Source: Phycisphaerae bacterium (GTDB lineage Bacteria > Planctomycetota > Phycisphaerae > JAAYCJ01). Taken from it: a stretch of 44,688 nt of DNA. The stretch is taken from the NCBI GenBank assembly GCA_012729815.1, contig JAAYCJ010000163.1:1-44688 (forward strand), written 5' to 3'. The notes beneath the pieces were generated by a model. That model was not told the DNA's origin. It was given only the letters and a program-made list of their open reading frames with translations, and searched no databases. A program made the position numbers and the translations under genes. The first letter of the stretch is position 1, and the number at the start of each line of letters is the position of its first letter. Below, in pieces: positions 1,696 through 27,959 of this stretch.

Positions 1696-3156
1696 TCAAC
1701 TGGCCGCCATTGAGCCGTTGAGTTCCGAAACCAGCTCCCGAAAGCGCTGCCCGCGGGCCTGGTAGTTCTCGAACATGTCCCAGCTGGCACAGCCGGGGGA
1801 AAGCAGGACACAGTCACCGGGGCCGGCTACTCTGGCCGAGTGGCTGACCGCTTCCTCGAGCGAGGCCGCCTCGGCGGCATCACCGCCGAACTGGCGGACC
1901 ATGGCCGCGATCCGCGGACCGGTCTGGCCGAGGGCCACCGTCAACTTGGCCCGCCGGGCCAGGTCGCGGGCGAAATCGGACAGGTCGAGCTGCTTGTCGT
2001 AGCCGCCGACGATCGCGATCGCCGTACCGCTGGGAAACGCCCGCAGGGCGACAATCCCCGACTGTGGCGTGGTGGATTTCGAATCGTTATACCAGCGGGT
2101 TCCTTCAATTTCCGCCACGAGTTCCAAGCGGTCCGCCAGCCCCTTGAAGCGGCGAAGGGCTGCGCCGATCCTCGCCGGGCTGACTCCGGCCGCGAGGGCG
2201 GCGGCGCTGGCGGCTGCGGCGTTCTGCAGGTTATGCTCGCCGGGGATCGCCATTTCGCTGGCGGCGATGATCCGCTCGGGCTGCCCGTTGAGGCTCGAAC
2301 TGAGTATCCAGCCGTCGACGTTCTGGGTCAGCGTCACCTGGTGGGAATTGACCGCCATTCCGGCTTCAGCGCGGGCGAAATGCCAGAGCTTGACCTCGCC
2401 GGGCATCAACTGCTCGATGGTCCGGCAATTCGCGTCGTTGGCGTTGGTGATCAGCACGTCGCCGGACCTCTGGAAGCGGGTGATATTCGATTTGGCCTCG
2501 ATGTAGCTTTCGAGGCTGTCGTGCCGATCCAGATGGTTCGGGAAGATGTTGGTGACCAGGGCGATCTCCGGGCTGTACTCAATCCCGGCGATGTCTTCGA
2601 GCTGGAAACTCGAAAGCTCCAGGATGACCAGATCGGTTTCCTGGATATGGGCGACGTCCTCCAGGAGGGACTTGCCGATGTTCCCGCCCAGCCACACGTT
2701 GGTGAAGCCAAGCCCCTTGTCCCGCGAGGCCAGCGCCTCGCGAAGGATAGTTTCGATCATGGCCACCGTCGTGCTCTTGCCCACCGTCCCGGTCACCCCG
2801 AGCACCCTGGCCCGGCAGCGGTCCAGGAACAGGTTCATTTCGGAGGTGATTGGGATATTCTTCTGGATGGCGAGCTTGAGGTATCGCGAGTTCTTGGGCA
2901 CCGCTGGGCTGACCACCACCAGGTCCGTATCGGTGAAATCGGCCTCGATGTGGCCGCCAAGATGCATCTGGACGGGAAGGTCGGCGATGCGGGCGATCGC
3001 GTCCTTGAGCTTGGCCTCAGGGGCAAGGTCCGTCACCGTGACCTCGGCACCCTGCGCGACGAGGAACCGCACCGCTGAGATCTGGCCTCCGAAGTGGCCC
3101 AGTCCCATAACCGTCACCCGCGTACCGACGAAATGTTCGGGTGGAAACGACATCAT
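1696..3156 (-). CDS. murD: UDP-N-acetylmuramoyl-L-alanine:D-glutamate ligase
   Basis: Cytoplasmic Mur ligase that adds D-glutamate to UDP-MurNAc-L-Ala in peptidoglycan precursor synthesis. The order of motifs is that of the family: an N-terminal Rossmann-like UDP-binding part (VMGLGHFGG, residues 16-24), the ATP P-loop GVTGTVGKSTT (about 120-130), LELSSFQLE, NIFPNHLDRH in the central domain, then YNDSKSTTP and LSPGCASWDMF in the C-terminal domain. The length of 486 residues is somewhat above E. coli MurD (438). The start is supported by GGAGG about 8 bases upstream. One oddity is that the usual Asn of the G-T-N-G-K-S/T loop is Val. The gene stands alone, far from the mraZ-rsmH cluster of this window. 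A peptidoglycan wall is implied. Confidence 0.95.
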   Translation of the reverse strand: MMSFPPEHFVGTRVTVMGLGHFGGQISAVRFLVAQGAEVTVTDLAPEAKLKDAIARIADLPVQMHLGGHIEADFTDTDLVVVSPAVPKNSRYLKLAIQKNIPITSEMNLFLDRCRARVLGVTGTVGKSTTVAMIETILREALASRDKGLGFTNVWLGGNIGKSLLEDVAHIQETDLVILELSSFQLEDIAGIEYSPEIALVTNIFPNHLDRHDSLESYIEAKSNITRFQRSGDVLITNANDANCRTIEQLMPGEVKLWHFARAEAGMAVNSHQVTLTQNVDGWILSSSLNGQPERIIAASEMAIPGEHNLQNAAAASAAALAAGVSPARIGAALRRFKGLADRLELVAEIEGTRWYNDSKSTTPQSGIVALRAFPSGTAIAIVGGYDKQLDLSDFARDLARRAKLTVALGQTGPRIAAMVRQFGGDAAEAASLEEAVSHSARVAGPGDCVLLSPGCASWDMFENYQARGQRFRELVSELNGSMAAS

Positions 3157-8063: not shown

Positions 8064-9035
8064 CTATGACGTGTATTGCATTCCCGTCGCCTCGCGGACC
8101 TCTCGCAACGTCGGCTCGGCCAGGGCCCTTGCCCGCCGCGCCCCGTCCTGCAGGACGCTCTCGACGTAGGCCGGGTCCTTCTCCAGTTCCGCCCGCTTTT
8201 CGCGGTACGGCTGGAAGTATTCGACCAACAGCTCGATCAGCCGTTTCTTGGCGTGGCCGTAGCCGGTCCCGCCCTGGCGGTACCGCTGTTCCCATTCCGT
8301 CCGCTCACTCGGGTCGGCCACCAGCCGCAGCAGGGCCATCACGTTGCACCGGTCCGGGTCTTTCGGCTCCTCCAGCGGCGTGCTGTCGGTGACGATCGAC
8401 ATGACCTTCCTCTTGATCGTCTTGGGGTCGGCGAAAATCTCGATGGTGTTATCGTAGCTCTTGGACATCTTCTGCCCGTCCAGCCCCGGCACCACCGCCG
8501 TCGATTCGAGTGTCCGCTCTTTGGGGATCACCAGGATTTCGCCGTAGGTCTGATTGAATTTCTGGGCGATGTCCTGGGTCACCTCGATGTGCTGCTTCTG
8601 GTCCTTGCCCACCGGGACCAGCTCGGACTTGTAGATCAGGATGTCCGCCGCCATGAGCACCGGATAGGCGAACAGGCCGTGATCGGCGGGGATGCCGCGC
8701 TCCAGCTTCTCCTTGTACGAGACGCACCGTTGGAGCAGGCCCATGGGGGTGATCGTCGAGAGGATCCAGCTCAGTTCCGTCACCTGCGGCACGTCCGACT
8801 GGCGGAAGAAGATCGTCCTGGCCGGGTCCAGGCCCAGCGCCAGGTAGTCCAGGGCCACGTCCTGCGTATATCGGACCAACAATTCCGGGTCCCTGAGGGT
8901 GGTCAGGGCGTGGTAGTTGGCGATGAAGTAGAGACCCTCATGCTCCCGCTGAAGCTCCAGATGCTGCTGCATCGCGCCGTAGTAGTTGCCCAGGTGCAAT
9001 TTCCCGGACGGCTGTATTCCCGATAGCACTCGCAT
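8064..9035 (-). CDS. trpS: Tryptophanyl-tRNA synthetase
   Basis: Class I aminoacyl-tRNA synthetase charging tRNA-Trp. The start MRVLSGIQPSG at 9035 is chosen because AGGAGGA (9045-9051 on the plus strand as TCCTCCT) lies 9 bases before it, although the frame is open 18 codons further. HLGN (the HIGH equivalent, residues 14-17) and KMSKS (in GLDGQKMSKS) are both present. At 323 residues it matches the normal bacterial length. It heads a minus-strand group with scpA and the kinase-like gene, with only 19 bases before scpA. The 5' region up to the divergent gene at 9319 shows GC-rich hairpins but no T-box signature. Confidence 0.96.
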   Translation of the reverse strand: MRVLSGIQPSGKLHLGNYYGAMQQHLELQREHEGLYFIANYHALTTLRDPELLVRYTQDVALDYLALGLDPARTIFFRQSDVPQVTELSWILSTITPMGLLQRCVSYKEKLERGIPADHGLFAYPVLMAADILIYKSELVPVGKDQKQHIEVTQDIAQKFNQTYGEILVIPKERTLESTAVVPGLDGQKMSKSYDNTIEIFADPKTIKRKVMSIVTDSTPLEEPKDPDRCNVMALLRLVADPSERTEWEQRYRQGGTGYGHAKKRLIELLVEYFQPYREKRAELEKDPAYVESVLQDGARRARALAEPTLREVREATGMQYTS

Positions 9036-9318
9036 TGGACTCGGTCCTCCTGCAACCAAACCCATATTGTAGCGGCTGAGGCCGGCCATATCACCAGGTT
9101 TTGGCCGACAAATCGCAAGGGCTGGGCCGGATGCCCCAGCCAGGCAGCCGGCGAGTCCGAACCCGGCGGTCCCGCTGCCAGCACTGAAAACGGCCCTGTC
9201 GGGACAGGCCGCGGCGACGTTTCATTGCTGCAACAGATCAACTGGAGGAGGGGCTGGCGATTGCCGATACTTTGATCCTGAGGCAATGCTCAAGGTTTTC
9301 CGCCAGAGAGGGCAAGCT

Positions 9319-10272
9319 ATGGCGAGGCCGATTTGTTTTCGATGGAGCTGGTTCCTGATAGCCGCCGTGGTCTCGGTGGGCGCCTCGACGCCGCCGGCCA
9401 CCCAGACCGGCGATCCGGACCGCGTGGTCCTGGTGTCCCCAAAGCACCCGACGTATCTGTCCGCACTGGATACTGTTGAGGCCGACTTGGGCGACAAGGA
9501 CTTCAAGACGCTTCGGGTCGAAGTGGCCGCAGCACGCGACTGGGTGGATGCGGCTCGGGCGTTCAAGCCGGACCTGATCGTCGTGGCGGGCTCGACCTGC
9601 ATCCGACCGGTTTTAGACGAGTTTCCGAATGTGCCGGTCGTGTTTACCATGATCCCCAATGCCCTCGACAGCCTCTCCGAGGACGTCAAGACGGACCAGA
9701 ACCGGGTCTCCGGCGTCACCACCGACATTTCCCCGGCGGCCCAGCTCGCCTGGATCGCCGGCACCTGTCCGGGAGTCAAGACCGTCGGCGTGCTCCACAG
9801 CCCATCTTCCCTCAAGACCGTCGAGGCCCTGGTGGCCACGGCCGCCACGCGCGGCATCAAGCTGATTCCGGTCAAAACGGACAAGCAGGATTTTGCCAAG
9901 GCCCTTCGCGAACTGAGTGAAAAGGACTGCCAGTCCGTACTCATGCTTCCGGACGCACAGGTCTACACGGCCGCCAATGTCCAGGGCCTTCTGCTCTGGG
10001 GTCTGCGCCAGAAACGCCCCGTGTATGCCTTCTCGCCCAACCTGGTCAAGGCGGGAGCCCTGGCCGGACAGTATTCCGAGATCGACGTGGTGGGTCGGCA
10101 GACCGCCGACGTCGTCCGCAGAATCCTTAAAGGGGCCGACCCTCGATCGGTCGGCCTGGAGTATCCTCAGCGGATATCCCGGGCGTTGAACCTTCGCACG
10201 GCCGACATGATCGGCGTGTCGGTCGACGCCAGCTTCCTTAAGGATCAGACCCTGGTATTCGGCGATAAATAG
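9319..10272 (+). CDS. ABC-type periplasmic substrate-binding protein (ABC_sub_bind family)
   Basis: A 317-residue periplasmic binding protein of the PF04392 type (two Rossmann-like lobes, usually of unknown substrate). The chosen start at 9319 gives a clean signal peptide (MARPICFRWSWFLIAAVVSVGAS) and has AGAGGG six bases upstream; the ATG at 9286 has a poorly placed ribosome site. Family-like stretches include FKPDLIVVAGSTC, VPVVFTMIPNAL, GVLHSPSS and AFSPNLVKAGALAGQY. No ABC permease or ATPase follows; instead a TonB-dependent receptor starts 11 bases later. Such protein pairs without a transporter occur in other Gram-negatives, so it may deliver ligand to or from the outer membrane receptor or act as a sensor. 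The substrate is unknown. Confidence 0.82.
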   Translation: MARPICFRWSWFLIAAVVSVGASTPPATQTGDPDRVVLVSPKHPTYLSALDTVEADLGDKDFKTLRVEVAAARDWVDAARAFKPDLIVVAGSTCIRPVLDEFPNVPVVFTMIPNALDSLSEDVKTDQNRVSGVTTDISPAAQLAWIAGTCPGVKTVGVLHSPSSLKTVEALVATAATRGIKLIPVKTDKQDFAKALRELSEKDCQSVLMLPDAQVYTAANVQGLLLWGLRQKRPVYAFSPNLVKAGALAGQYSEIDVVGRQTADVVRRILKGADPRSVGLEYPQRISRALNLRTADMIGVSVDASFLKDQTLVFGDK

Positions 10273-24423: not shown

Positions 24424-25359
24424 TTATATCGAACCGCGAACTTCAGATGATGAAACTTTTTCGATCGCCCGCAATTTCGCCGATCGCGACCGCGGATTCC
24501 GCAGCACTTCGCCCGGTTCCGCCGTCAACGGCTTCTTCGTCAGCACGCGATATCGGCCGTCCTGCTCGCGCTGGCGGAAGGCTTCCTTCACCAGCGAATC
24601 TTCGAGGCTGTGGAAGCTGATCACCGCAAATCGCCCACCCGCCGCCAAACGGTCCGGGGCACTGCTCAACAGTTGCTCCAGTTGCCCCAACTCGTCATTG
24701 ACCGCGATCCGCAGGGCCTGAAACGTCTTGGTCGCCGGGTGAATCCGGCCGGCGCTGATCCCTTTCGGGTCCAGCCCCAATGCCCGGCAGACAATCTCCG
24801 CCAACTGCACCGTCGAGTCGAGCCGCTGGTTGCGCCGGGCCTGGCAGATCATCGCCGCGATCTTCCGGCTGCGACCCTCCTCGCCGTACCGGTAGATCAG
24901 GTCGGCCAGTTCCTGCTCCTTCAAGCCGTTGACCAGGTCGGCCGCCCGGGTTGGCTGCTCCGGATCCATCCGCATGTCAAGCGGCCCGTCCTGGGCGAAC
25001 GAAAACCCTCGCTCAGGACGGTCGAGCTGGAACGCGCTGGTTCCGATGTCCGCGTAGATGAACGACACGGGACCGACGCCGCTCCGATCCAGGATATCCG
25101 GCAGCTCGCCGAACCGCCCGCGGACCAGCGTCACCTTCGCCGCGTGGTCCTTGAGCTTCTCACTTGCCCGCTCCAGCGCGGCTGGATCGGCGTCGATGCC
25201 GATGAGCCTTTGGAGCAGGGGACAGGCCTGCAAGATCGCCAATGCGTGGCCGCCGCCGCCCAGGGTGCAATCCACCCCGATTTCCTCGGGCTTGGAATCA
25301 AGCACGCCGATGAGTTGGCTCGTCAGGACTGGGATGTGCTGCAGGGGGCCGCCGGTCAC
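24424..25359 (-). CDS. rsmH: 16S rRNA (cytosine-1402 N4)-methyltransferase
   Basis: Methylates the N4 of C1402 in the decoding centre of 16S rRNA with S-adenosylmethionine. The order of motifs is HIPVLTSQLI, the SAM site DCTLGGGGHA (30-39), GIDADPAAL, IYADIGTSAFQLDRPERGFSF, the MRM segment PLDMRMDP, then the insertion domain, HPATKTFQALRIAVNDEL and ISFHSLEDS. In many homologues the aspartate motif reads DLGVSS; here it is ADIGTSA, within family variation. The length of 311 is typical. GTG is used as start at 25359, with a weak ribosome site. The gene lies downstream of mraZ with one small gene in between. Confidence 0.96.
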   Translation of the reverse strand: MTGGPLQHIPVLTSQLIGVLDSKPEEIGVDCTLGGGGHALAILQACPLLQRLIGIDADPAALERASEKLKDHAAKVTLVRGRFGELPDILDRSGVGPVSFIYADIGTSAFQLDRPERGFSFAQDGPLDMRMDPEQPTRAADLVNGLKEQELADLIYRYGEEGRSRKIAAMICQARRNQRLDSTVQLAEIVCRALGLDPKGISAGRIHPATKTFQALRIAVNDELGQLEQLLSSAPDRLAAGGRFAVISFHSLEDSLVKEAFRQREQDGRYRVLTKKPLTAEPGEVLRNPRSRSAKLRAIEKVSSSEVRGSI

Positions 25360-25545
25360 GTCGATCCATCAGTCTCAGTCAGAATTCCATTCCGTCCACT
25401 GACATTATCGGACGTTCAATTGTACAGAAGAAGCCGTCTTGCATCAACTGCAAAAGAAGTACTGATAATCTACGTCAGACCAGCAGTAATTTCAATGGTA
25501 TTTTACTAAGATTCTGGGCCCAAAGGCAAGAAAAACTGCGATTCG

Positions 25546-25785
25546 TCAAGCATGGCTGGCCAGACGCGCGGCTTGAGAGGAAAGGCGAACCTGACCGAAT
25601 CGCCCGCCCAAGCGCTGGAGACGCCGGACCTTCGCCTGGATCCGCTCCATCGCCGTCGTAAGTGTTTGGCGATCCACAGCTTGTCCGTCAAGAGCGGTGC
25701 GAATGGCAAGTAGATCGGCGGCCGGGCCCAGAATCGGCGGGCAGGGGGGTGCCTGACGGGTGACGGCGGTGGCGGTCTGGGTCAT
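25546..25785 (-). CDS. Hypothetical small protein between mraZ and rsmH
   Basis: A 79-residue protein. The start at 25785 (MTQTATAVTRQ) has AAGGAAA at a good distance; the frame extends 18 codons upstream without a better site. It has no signal peptide or membrane segment. The first 30 residues are Pro/Ala-rich, and the rest (LLAIRTALDGQAVDRQTLTTAMERIQAKVRRLQRLGGRFGQ) should form helices, possibly a coiled-coil. I do not recognise a family. A gap of 186 bases to rsmH (25360-25545) shows nothing clear. Confidence 0.5.
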   Translation of the reverse strand: MTQTATAVTRQAPPCPPILGPAADLLAIRTALDGQAVDRQTLTTAMERIQAKVRRLQRLGGRFGQVRLSSQAARLASHA

Positions 25786-25872
25786 GGCGAGTTTCCTTGT
25801 GCAATTCCGTTTGCGACTTGCCGACCAAAACCGCGGCAAGTTCCTTTCGCCGCGGTGTTTACCGATGGGAGC

Positions 25873-26358
25873 TTACGTTTCGGGCCTCGACATTGGGCCC
25901 GAGCCAGGTGTCATCCTTGCCAGCCTGGCCCGGGTAAGCGTCTGGCTGTACTCCGAGAGTCCGTTCTCAACATACTGCTCCCAATCTTCGCGGTTCCATA
26001 TCTCCAGGTGATCCCTCACGCCGATGATGACCACATCCTTGCCAAGCTGAGCCCTGCGTATCATGCGATCGGGAACCAGCACCCGACCGGTGCTGTCGAT
26101 GTCCAGCAGCGTGGCCAGCCCGAACGTCAACTGCTCGAACTGCATCACGTTCTCGTCCGGGATGAGCTCAGCCGGCATCCGGTTGACGAGCTGCTCGTAG
26201 TACTGGTCCGGATAGAGCCAAAGCCGCTTGTTCGCGCCCAAAATCAGATAGAATTTGCTGCCGACGGTCTCCGGGCACAGCAACTGCCGGAACCGGGCCG
26301 GGATCGACAGCCGGTTCTTCTGGTCGAGCGTGTGTTCATGCTCACCGGTAAACAGCAA
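25873..26358 (-). CDS. mraZ: Transcriptional regulator MraZ
   Basis: A 161-residue AbrB-like DNA-binding protein that in other bacteria forms a ring and regulates its own division-and-wall operon. Two swapped-hairpin repeats are visible: GEHEHTLDQKNRLSIPARFR (residues 5-24), and LDIDSTGRVLVPDRMIRRA with DVVIIGVRDHLEIW (about 85-120). The start codon is TTG at 26358; AGAGGG lies about 10 bases upstream. A promoter and phased TGGG repeats, the kind of site MraZ recognises, lie about 130 bases upstream. Confidence 0.96.
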   Translation of the reverse strand: MLFTGEHEHTLDQKNRLSIPARFRQLLCPETVGSKFYLILGANKRLWLYPDQYYEQLVNRMPAELIPDENVMQFEQLTFGLATLLDIDSTGRVLVPDRMIRRAQLGKDVVIIGVRDHLEIWNREDWEQYVENGLSEYSQTLTRARLARMTPGSGPMSRPET

Positions 26359-26528: not shown

Positions 26529-26672
26529 CGATTAAATCAGGCGAAAAATCGAAAAAAACTAAAGTCCTCGGACCCCGCCTGCCAACGGAGGAGCTACCAG
26601 GGATCTTCTCAGAAAAAAGTATGTTCGTGGGAGACTGAGGTCTCTTTGGGATGAAAGGTGGTTCTGCAAGGT

Positions 26673-27959
26673 ATGAGCGAGCTGGAGGAACAGGTAGCGC
26701 GAGCGAAGGCGGGAGAACTGGGCGCCTACGGCGAGATTGTCCGGAGGTTCCAGGACATGGCTTTTGGCTACGCCTGTTCGATACTCGGTGACTTCCATCT
26801 GGCCGAGGACGCCGCCCAGGACGCCTTCGTCGAGGCGTACCGTCGGCTTGGGCAACTCACGGTGCCGCAGGCGTTTCCGGGGTGGTTTCGCCGGGTTGTC
26901 TTCAGCCGGTGCGCCGCCACACTGCGGCGAAGACGCGAATTGACCGCCGACGGCAACGAGGTAGACGCCATTGGCGATGCCGCCGACGGACCGGCTGAGA
27001 CGGCCGAGCGTCGTGAGATGCAAGCGGCAGTTCTGGAGGCGATCCGCTCCTTGCCGGAGATCCAACGCACCGCCGCCACGCTGTTCTACATCAACGGCTA
27101 TTCACAGAAGCAGTTGGCTGAGTTCCTTGAAGTGCCGGTGACCACCGTGCAGAAACGCATTCACGACGCGAGGAGAAATCTGAAAGGGAGGTTGCTGAAA
27201 ATGGTCGAGGACACGCTCAAAGAGAACTCACCGCAGCGGGATGAGGCGAGCGACAGGGTCCGGTTCATGCTTGGTCATGCCGAGCGGATCGGCCAGGGAG
27301 TTCCGATCCTTGCCGGACTCGAAGCCGCCCGCGACCAGATGACAACGCAGAAGATGCGCAACCACGCGCAGGAAGTCATCGACGACGTGCTGGCCGGCCG
27401 GTCGATCCGCGAGTCGCTGGTCAAACGTCGCTGGCTTCTGCCGCCGATGGTCTTGCTCCTGATCCAGGCCGGCGAGTATCTGGGGGAGTTGGACGTCCTG
27501 ATGCGCATGGCGGGCCATTGTCTGCGCGAAGGACACTACGAAGCCGACCCCGACGCATTCACGCGGGCGAAGGACTACCTCCTGCGGCGCGTTCTCAAAC
27601 AGGGATTGGCCAAAGGAGCACAGGCGGTGGTGATGGACAGCCGACGCGTGTCTCCGATGCCCGACCTGAAGGAACGATACGACAAGATATGGATCGAGTT
27701 GCTGATGCCCGATGGTTCGCGCGAACGAGTCGAGCCGCTCTGCCCGCCGGACCACTTCAACAAGTGCTCAGCCGGCATCAAGATGGACACCATCCTCGAT
27801 CGCCAGCAAGAGGGCGATCAGTTGACCGGCATGTTCCGCCTCCGCCTCGACCCTGCTGACTCGACCGAACAGCTCTTCCCGATCACCTTTCAGCCGTTTC
27901 GCGACGGCGAGGAGATACGAATCTGCTTTCAACCGATAGAAACGGAGCATTCCTCCTGA
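26673..27959 (+). CDS. ECF sigma factor with C-terminal GspF-like domain
   Basis: A 428-residue fusion. Residues 1-175 are an ECF sigma factor: region 2 (FGYACSILGDFHLAEDAAQDAFVEAYRRL, FPGWFRRVV) and region 4 (LPEIQRTAATLFYINGYSQKQLAEFLEVPVTTVQKRIHDARRNLK). From about 215 to 285 follows a stretch like the type II secretion F (GspF/PilC) domain: VIDDVLAGRSIRESLVKRRWLLPPMVLLLIQAGEYLGELDVLMRMA, where the Gly-Glu-x-x-Gly-x-Leu core is typical. The last 140 residues are beta-rich and unrecognised. No transmembrane segment is obvious apart from a weak hydrophobic patch in the GspF-like part. ATG at 26673 is preferred over GTG at 26658. No anti-sigma gene is adjacent, so the extension may itself control activity. 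Confidence 0.8.
   Translation: MSELEEQVARAKAGELGAYGEIVRRFQDMAFGYACSILGDFHLAEDAAQDAFVEAYRRLGQLTVPQAFPGWFRRVVFSRCAATLRRRRELTADGNEVDAIGDAADGPAETAERREMQAAVLEAIRSLPEIQRTAATLFYINGYSQKQLAEFLEVPVTTVQKRIHDARRNLKGRLLKMVEDTLKENSPQRDEASDRVRFMLGHAERIGQGVPILAGLEAARDQMTTQKMRNHAQEVIDDVLAGRSIRESLVKRRWLLPPMVLLLIQAGEYLGELDVLMRMAGHCLREGHYEADPDAFTRAKDYLLRRVLKQGLAKGAQAVVMDSRRVSPMPDLKERYDKIWIELLMPDGSRERVEPLCPPDHFNKCSAGIKMDTILDRQQEGDQLTGMFRLRLDPADSTEQLFPITFQPFRDGEEIRICFQPIETEHSS

Follow-up and report, generated by a model that had tools for sequence, protein, structure and literature searches.

The window analysed here is a stretch of 44,688 nucleotides from a Phycisphaerae bacterium, and one of its genes raises the question of why an ECF sigma factor should be joined to a segment resembling the inner-membrane platform protein of type II secretion systems (T2SS) and type IV pili. 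The preliminary description had read the gene by eye as an ECF sigma factor joined to a GspF/PilC-like domain, with no anti-sigma gene nearby, and had suggested that the appended part may sense the secretion apparatus or keep the sigma factor silent.

The gene and its parts

The gene is a single uninterrupted reading frame (Table 1), for which a GTG at 26658 is an alternative start. The Pfam matches to PF04542 and PF08281 both exceed their cut-offs, TIGR02937 reaches 81.8 bits against a cut-off of 42.9, and Sigma70_r3 has no Pfam match in the protein, which has regions 2 and 4 without 1.1 and 3, the composition of an ECF sigma factor. Linkers like MVxDTLxExxPSxDxxF precede unrelated extensions across the sigma family, as found by sequence comparison. 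The neighbours are mraZ and rsmH, which are divergent, and a metallophosphoesterase gene; no anti-sigma gene adjoins the sigma gene, as the preliminary description had it, and no T2SS/pilus gene does. No pilus or T2SS genes adjoin the corresponding gene in any carrier examined, and a shared gene neighbourhood was looked for among the orthologues and none was found.

Table 1 Features of the sigma gene and its surroundings in the window, and of the GspE-chimera operon of the same genome (contig C199, positions on locus L189)
Feature	Position	Strand	Basis
Complete gene, ECF sigma with GspF-Cyto and predicted PilB/GspE-N2 extension, 428 aa	26673..27959	+	Frame, Pfam, homologues, AF2/Foldseek
Sigma-70 region 2, residues 22-88	26736..26936	+	PF04542 (Sigma70_r2), E 1e-8
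Sigma-70 region 4, residues 119-170	27027..27182	+	PF08281 (Sigma70_r4_2), E 6.9e-13
Linker, residues 171-189, holds MVEDTLKENSPQRD	27183..27239	+	Sequence comparison
Soluble GspF/PilC cytoplasmic domain, about residues 190-286	27240..27530	+	PF00482, TIGR02120, Foldseek 2whn
Predicted PilB/GspE N2 (PAS-like) domain, sequence-degenerate, about residues 295-420	27555..27932	+	AF2 models, Foldseek
mraZ and rsmH, start of division/cell-wall cluster, divergent to sigma gene	24424-26358	-	
ECF sigma, C199 operon	8459-7878	-	
zf-HC2 + HTH_17 protein, anti-sigma-like, C199 operon	7891-7427	-	Domains
Clp_N-N2D-ATPase (GspE) chimera, C199 operon	7431-5785	-	Domains

An artefact, in which a frameshift, an assembly join or a pseudogene links two genes, is highly improbable. 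In its favour, the window's genome is assembled in 367 contigs, and those comparison sequences that are identified by record are metagenome assemblies; against it stand the continuous frame and the recurrence of the fusion in proteins of three other genomes, 33-40% identical to the window protein, and the order and trimming of the domains are unlike a gspE-gspF read-through. There is also no sign of a frameshift joint, because the G+C contents at the three codon positions are alike in the sigma part (0.67/0.44/0.75), the T2SSF part (0.74/0.40/0.83) and the tail (0.64/0.40/0.75). A frameshift or assembly join is ruled out by the conserved architecture together with this uniform composition.

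The middle segment belongs to the cytoplasmic (Cyto) domain of GspF/PilC. T2SSF (PF00482) matches residues 208-281 of the whole protein with E 3.4e-9 (37.1 bits) and the fragment alone with E 1.3e-10 (41.8 bits), in both cases above the Pfam gathering threshold of 25.2, and the NCBIfam GspF profile TIGR02120 matches the fragment with E 6.7e-13. A phmmer search of the PDB returned PilC (2whn) at 8e-4, and the PDB structure search likewise found the segment to resemble the cytoplasmic domains of PilC, OutF and EpsF, with a Foldseek fit to 2whn of 1.3 A rmsd over 96 columns. The earlier assignment by eye was therefore right by profile and by structure, two of the checks that had been proposed for it. 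Of the two outcomes named beforehand as refuting it, a lack of T2SSF similarity is contradicted by the significant match and an artificial join by the conserved fusion. Of the 125 positions of the T2SSF profile, the match spans 11-85, which is the cytoplasmic helix bundle only, the hydrophobic part being absent; the maximum Kyte-Doolittle value over 19 residues is 1.33, compared with 3.43 in an authentic GspF encoded by this genome, and no 19-residue stretch is membrane-like on this scale. Since the match ends before the membrane part and hydropathy is low, the segment is a soluble cytoplasmic domain. A complete GspF/PilC protein is taken to have two cytoplasmic domains, three membrane helices and a TIGR02120 score above the equivalog cut-off of 424 bits; the window protein has one Cyto domain, no membrane helix and a score of 48.6 bits. 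The absence of a membrane helix rules out an integral-membrane platform protein, so that the platform-protein reading stands for the cytoplasmic domain and falls for the membrane helices.

The last 140 or so residues, left unassigned in the preliminary description, are recognised by predicted structure as an N2 domain (N2D) of the PilB/GspE ATPases, in models of moderate confidence. Residues 286-428 match no Pfam or NCBIfam profile, and hhalign aligns the tail of the window's subfamily with N2D at 0.5% probability; sequence-based assignment thus failed for this subfamily, and structure was used in its place. The tails of relatives in Armatimonadota (L011) do reach N2D by hhalign (96% probability, E 1.6e-9). 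A first AlphaFold (AF2) model of the whole protein, built from five alignment rows including two from Armatimonadota, has a mean pLDDT of 66, with most of the T2SSF part at 82-89, and its Foldseek matches in the PDB are ECF sigma factors, the Cyto domains of PilC, OutF and EpsF, and the ATPases PilB, PilF and EpsE, the last over about 120 columns. As the Armatimonadota rows carry a recognisable N2 domain, residues 282-428 were predicted again with the rows of two planctomycetal relatives only (pLDDT 61.5). The top 22 Foldseek matches of this isolated tail are all ATPases of the type IV pilus and T2SS type, namely 21 chains of PilB, PilF, EpsE or GspE followed by DotB, and the best of them is 5zfr_C (E 2.3e-4, TM 0.52 to the query). 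The tail's succession of helix, strands, helix and strands agrees with N2D. The window protein stops after this domain, and the ATPase domain with its Walker A and B motifs is absent.

Recurrence of the architecture and the wider sigma family

The order sigma-Cyto-N2D recurs in two other genomes of Planctomycetota, as the preliminary description had proposed to check, one of a different class (L018) and one of the same class and a different family (L092) relative to the window's genome, and in a tandem pair of genes in one Armatimonadota genome (L011). T2SSF is above its cut-off in the relatives scanned, namely L018 and both copies of L011. The architecture is rare: at least three planctomycetal genomes have sigma-Cyto-N2D (samples of 392 and 397), and at least two of 291 armatimonadotal genomes have sigma-Cyto, these counts being lower bounds obtained by scoring the top few candidates per genome.

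The trees are too weak to settle how many fusions took place. In the sigma tree, the sigma-Cyto proteins are interspersed, with weak support, between proteins that bear different extensions. By the AU test, a single clade of the planctomycetal three is not rejected (p 0.35), and one of six sigma-Cyto proteins is rejected marginally (p 0.04). In the Cyto tree, the planctomycetal domains and the armatimonadotal ones each form a supported group, the two groups not being sisters, and one clade for both phyla is not rejected (p 0.12). In a smaller Cyto tree, the window domain had fallen with Cyto2, a placement lost with more rows, and the domain may derive from either Cyto1 or Cyto2.

Nearly all ORFs nearest to the window sigma (>170 bits) carry an extension that exceeds 150 aa. 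Clustering and Pfam searches grouped these extensions as ankyrin (12), PheRS-core-like (10), Cyto (7) and F1-ATPase-like (3), and TPR and HEAT extensions also occur; a group of 10 peptidase/BtrH-like extensions is named by eye only. Singletons include BNR, APH, AAA+ and nucleotidyltransferase domains, a Rho RNA-binding domain and an entire second sigma of the WhiG/FliA-like type. Four members of the family belong to the window's genome itself: the window gene, one with BNR (L002), one with APH (L003) and a PheRS-like one that is cut by a contig end. Further parts of the filament motor are found in other members: two Cyto domains (3.6e-36) in L087, Cyto and Clp_N in L121 (Armatimonadota), N2D-like segments in L089 and L081, and, in L103:377-2044 (+), a PilT/GspE-like ATPase whose Walker A motif is intact (T2SSE, E 4e-22).

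Several other extensions of this family were observed in passing. A PheRS-like class II tRNA-synthetase core occurs at L020 (PF01409, E 1.5e-19), L021, L093, L097 and L099, and also at L122, L123, L127, L131 and L153; it is a candidate on-board sensor of phenylalanine or tRNA. An F1-ATPase alpha/beta-like domain follows the ECF sigma in L026, L028 and L101 (PF00006, E 2e-9 in L101), the second sigma with regions 2, 3 and 4 lies in L023:721-2247 (-), and the C-terminal Rho RNA-binding domain lies in L095:1237-2703 (+) (PF07497, E 4.5e-11). A dispersed palindrome, about AAACTTTCAAGACCTGACCCCATGGGGTCAGGTCTTGAAAGTTT, flanks the sigma-BNR gene (L002 near 1236-1282 and 3049-3095), also lies near the C199 operon (L189 near 8586-8632 and 9305-9351) and is absent from the window; it may be a REP-like element.

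Control of the sigma factor and GspE-chimera operons

In published models of PulF3:PulE6, each Cyto domain sits on one N2D (PMC10790770), and the extension would therefore hold two touching parts of the motor in one chain. The reading we favour, with somewhat less than even confidence, is that this ECF sigma factor is gated by the extension it carries and that the extension would dock on parts of a pilus or secretion motor. The C-terminal extension would stand in for an anti-sigma factor: its Cyto-N2D unit may fold onto either the sigma part or itself, thereby setting the access of sigma to RNA polymerase. The same unit would serve for docking, with the N2D of a PilB/GspE hexamer, the Cyto domain of PilC/GspF or, alternatively, the corresponding domain of one of the cell's soluble GspE chimeras as its partner. 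Binding or release would then couple transcription to the motor state, and the active form could be either the bound or the free one. In favour of this reading, besides the domain identities and the related fusions, the window's genome encodes several sets of GspE and GspF (contigs C61, C145 and C350). Against it, the motor motifs of the window protein's N2D are eroded, so that its original contacts may be lost, pilus or T2SS genes adjoin the gene in none of the carriers examined, confidence in the AF2 models is moderate, and many extensions of the sigma family are unconnected with pili.

Separate operons of related content exist. Contig C199 of the window's genome carries sigma, zf-HC2+HTH_17 and GspE-chimera genes on the same strand (L189:5785-8459, -), and in two other planctomycetal genomes, G147 and G286 (loci L190 and L194), sigma and zf-HC2+HTH_17 genes are followed by a soluble Cyto-Cyto-N2D-ATPase chimera. 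The operon of sigma, anti-sigma and soluble GspE chimera is thus found in three planctomycetal genomes, including the window's own, and two of the chimeras have Cyto domains. In a further genome (G279), a Ser/Thr-kinase-like frame of 1264 aa (L191:2776-6567, +; motif by eye) adjoins the gene of a small, soluble Cyto-Cyto protein that lacks membrane helices (L187:1553-2245, +).

These operons bear on another explanation, in which the extension partners with soluble GspE chimeras (Clp_N-GspE or Cyto-Cyto-GspE) in a cytoplasmic, ATP-driven control of sigma that derives from the motor and is independent of any filament, the window protein being a fused offshoot. It draws on the C199 operon, on the Cyto-Cyto version in the two other planctomycetes and on the armatimonadotal sigma that links Cyto to Clp_N; nevertheless it seems unlikely, as the operon was found in few genomes and its sigmas are only remotely related to the window sigma, with 62-77 bits where the family reaches about 290. 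The main rival is co-option without a link to pili, in which Cyto-N2D serves as a spare module for sensing a small molecule or some other protein, in a sigma family that repeatedly gains ligand-binding, oligomerisation or scaffold domains. We regard it as a real though lesser possibility. The PheRS-like, F1-ATPase-like, Rho, ankyrin, TPR, BNR, APH and second-sigma extensions of the relatives favour it, as do the PAS-like fold of N2D and the loss of its motor motifs, whereas it leaves unexplained why two domains of one machine are combined, in an order shared by two phyla, why other members hold two Cyto domains, N2D or PilT of that machine, and why separate sigma/anti-sigma/GspE-chimera operons exist.

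The earlier suggestion of sensing or silencing is strengthened by the N2D, by the related fusions and by the ECF operons with GspE chimeras, and is weakened by the many pilus-unrelated extensions of the same sigma family. A broader proposal is more doubtful: that a type IV filament motor contact in a single chain (Cyto with N2D) has been wired to an ECF sigma factor, beside ECF operons with GspE chimeras, so that transcription might follow the motor state without an anti-sigma factor, and that this has been assembled more than once, in Planctomycetota and in Armatimonadota. A sigma factor carrying docking parts of the motor would, if this is true, be a direct route from motor to transcription. 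The PheRS, F1-ATPase, Rho, second-sigma and motor-part extensions of the wider family suggest that domains of core machines repeatedly become on-board ECF sensors in poorly studied phyla.

Comparison with known systems

ECF factors with extensions are known to lack an anti-sigma gene, and their activity is set via ligand binding, protein contact or proteolysis; for ECF42, a C-terminal extension gated by interaction has been proposed (PMC8999054). The window protein shares with them the core of regions 2 and 4, the lack of an adjacent anti-sigma gene and a soluble, presumably regulatory extension (PMC8999054; PMC8103513), and the general kind, an ECF factor with a regulatory extension, is already known. 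The extensions of ECF41, ECF42, ECF57 and ECF238 are SnoaL, TPR, WD40 or cysteine-rich, none of which is among the Pfam matches of the window protein, whereas its own extension consists of GspF Cyto and, as modelled, N2. The literature searched describes no Cyto or N2 extension of an ECF factor, a mention in the main ECF classification paper (PMC7826278) being possible, and the word T2SSF is absent from the ECF sigma literature searched.

With GspF/PilC (PF00482, TIGR02120), the protein shares one cytoplasmic domain by profile and fold; GspF/PilC has two such domains with membrane helices, while the window protein has one, without helices and fused to sigma. With the PilB/GspE/PilT ATPases (PF00437), it shares the N2 domain by predicted fold, and it differs in lacking the ATPase domain and Walker motifs, in its eroded N2D motifs and in the Cyto domain placed before N2D. 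The activity of Bacillus subtilis sigma-G needs the SpoIIIA-SpoIIQ complex, which has GspE-like and GspF-like parts (PMC2703783). There, a separate membrane machine acts with a separate, unfused sigma that is not an ECF factor; it is nonetheless a precedent for a GspE/GspF-like machine governing sigma activity, by another route.
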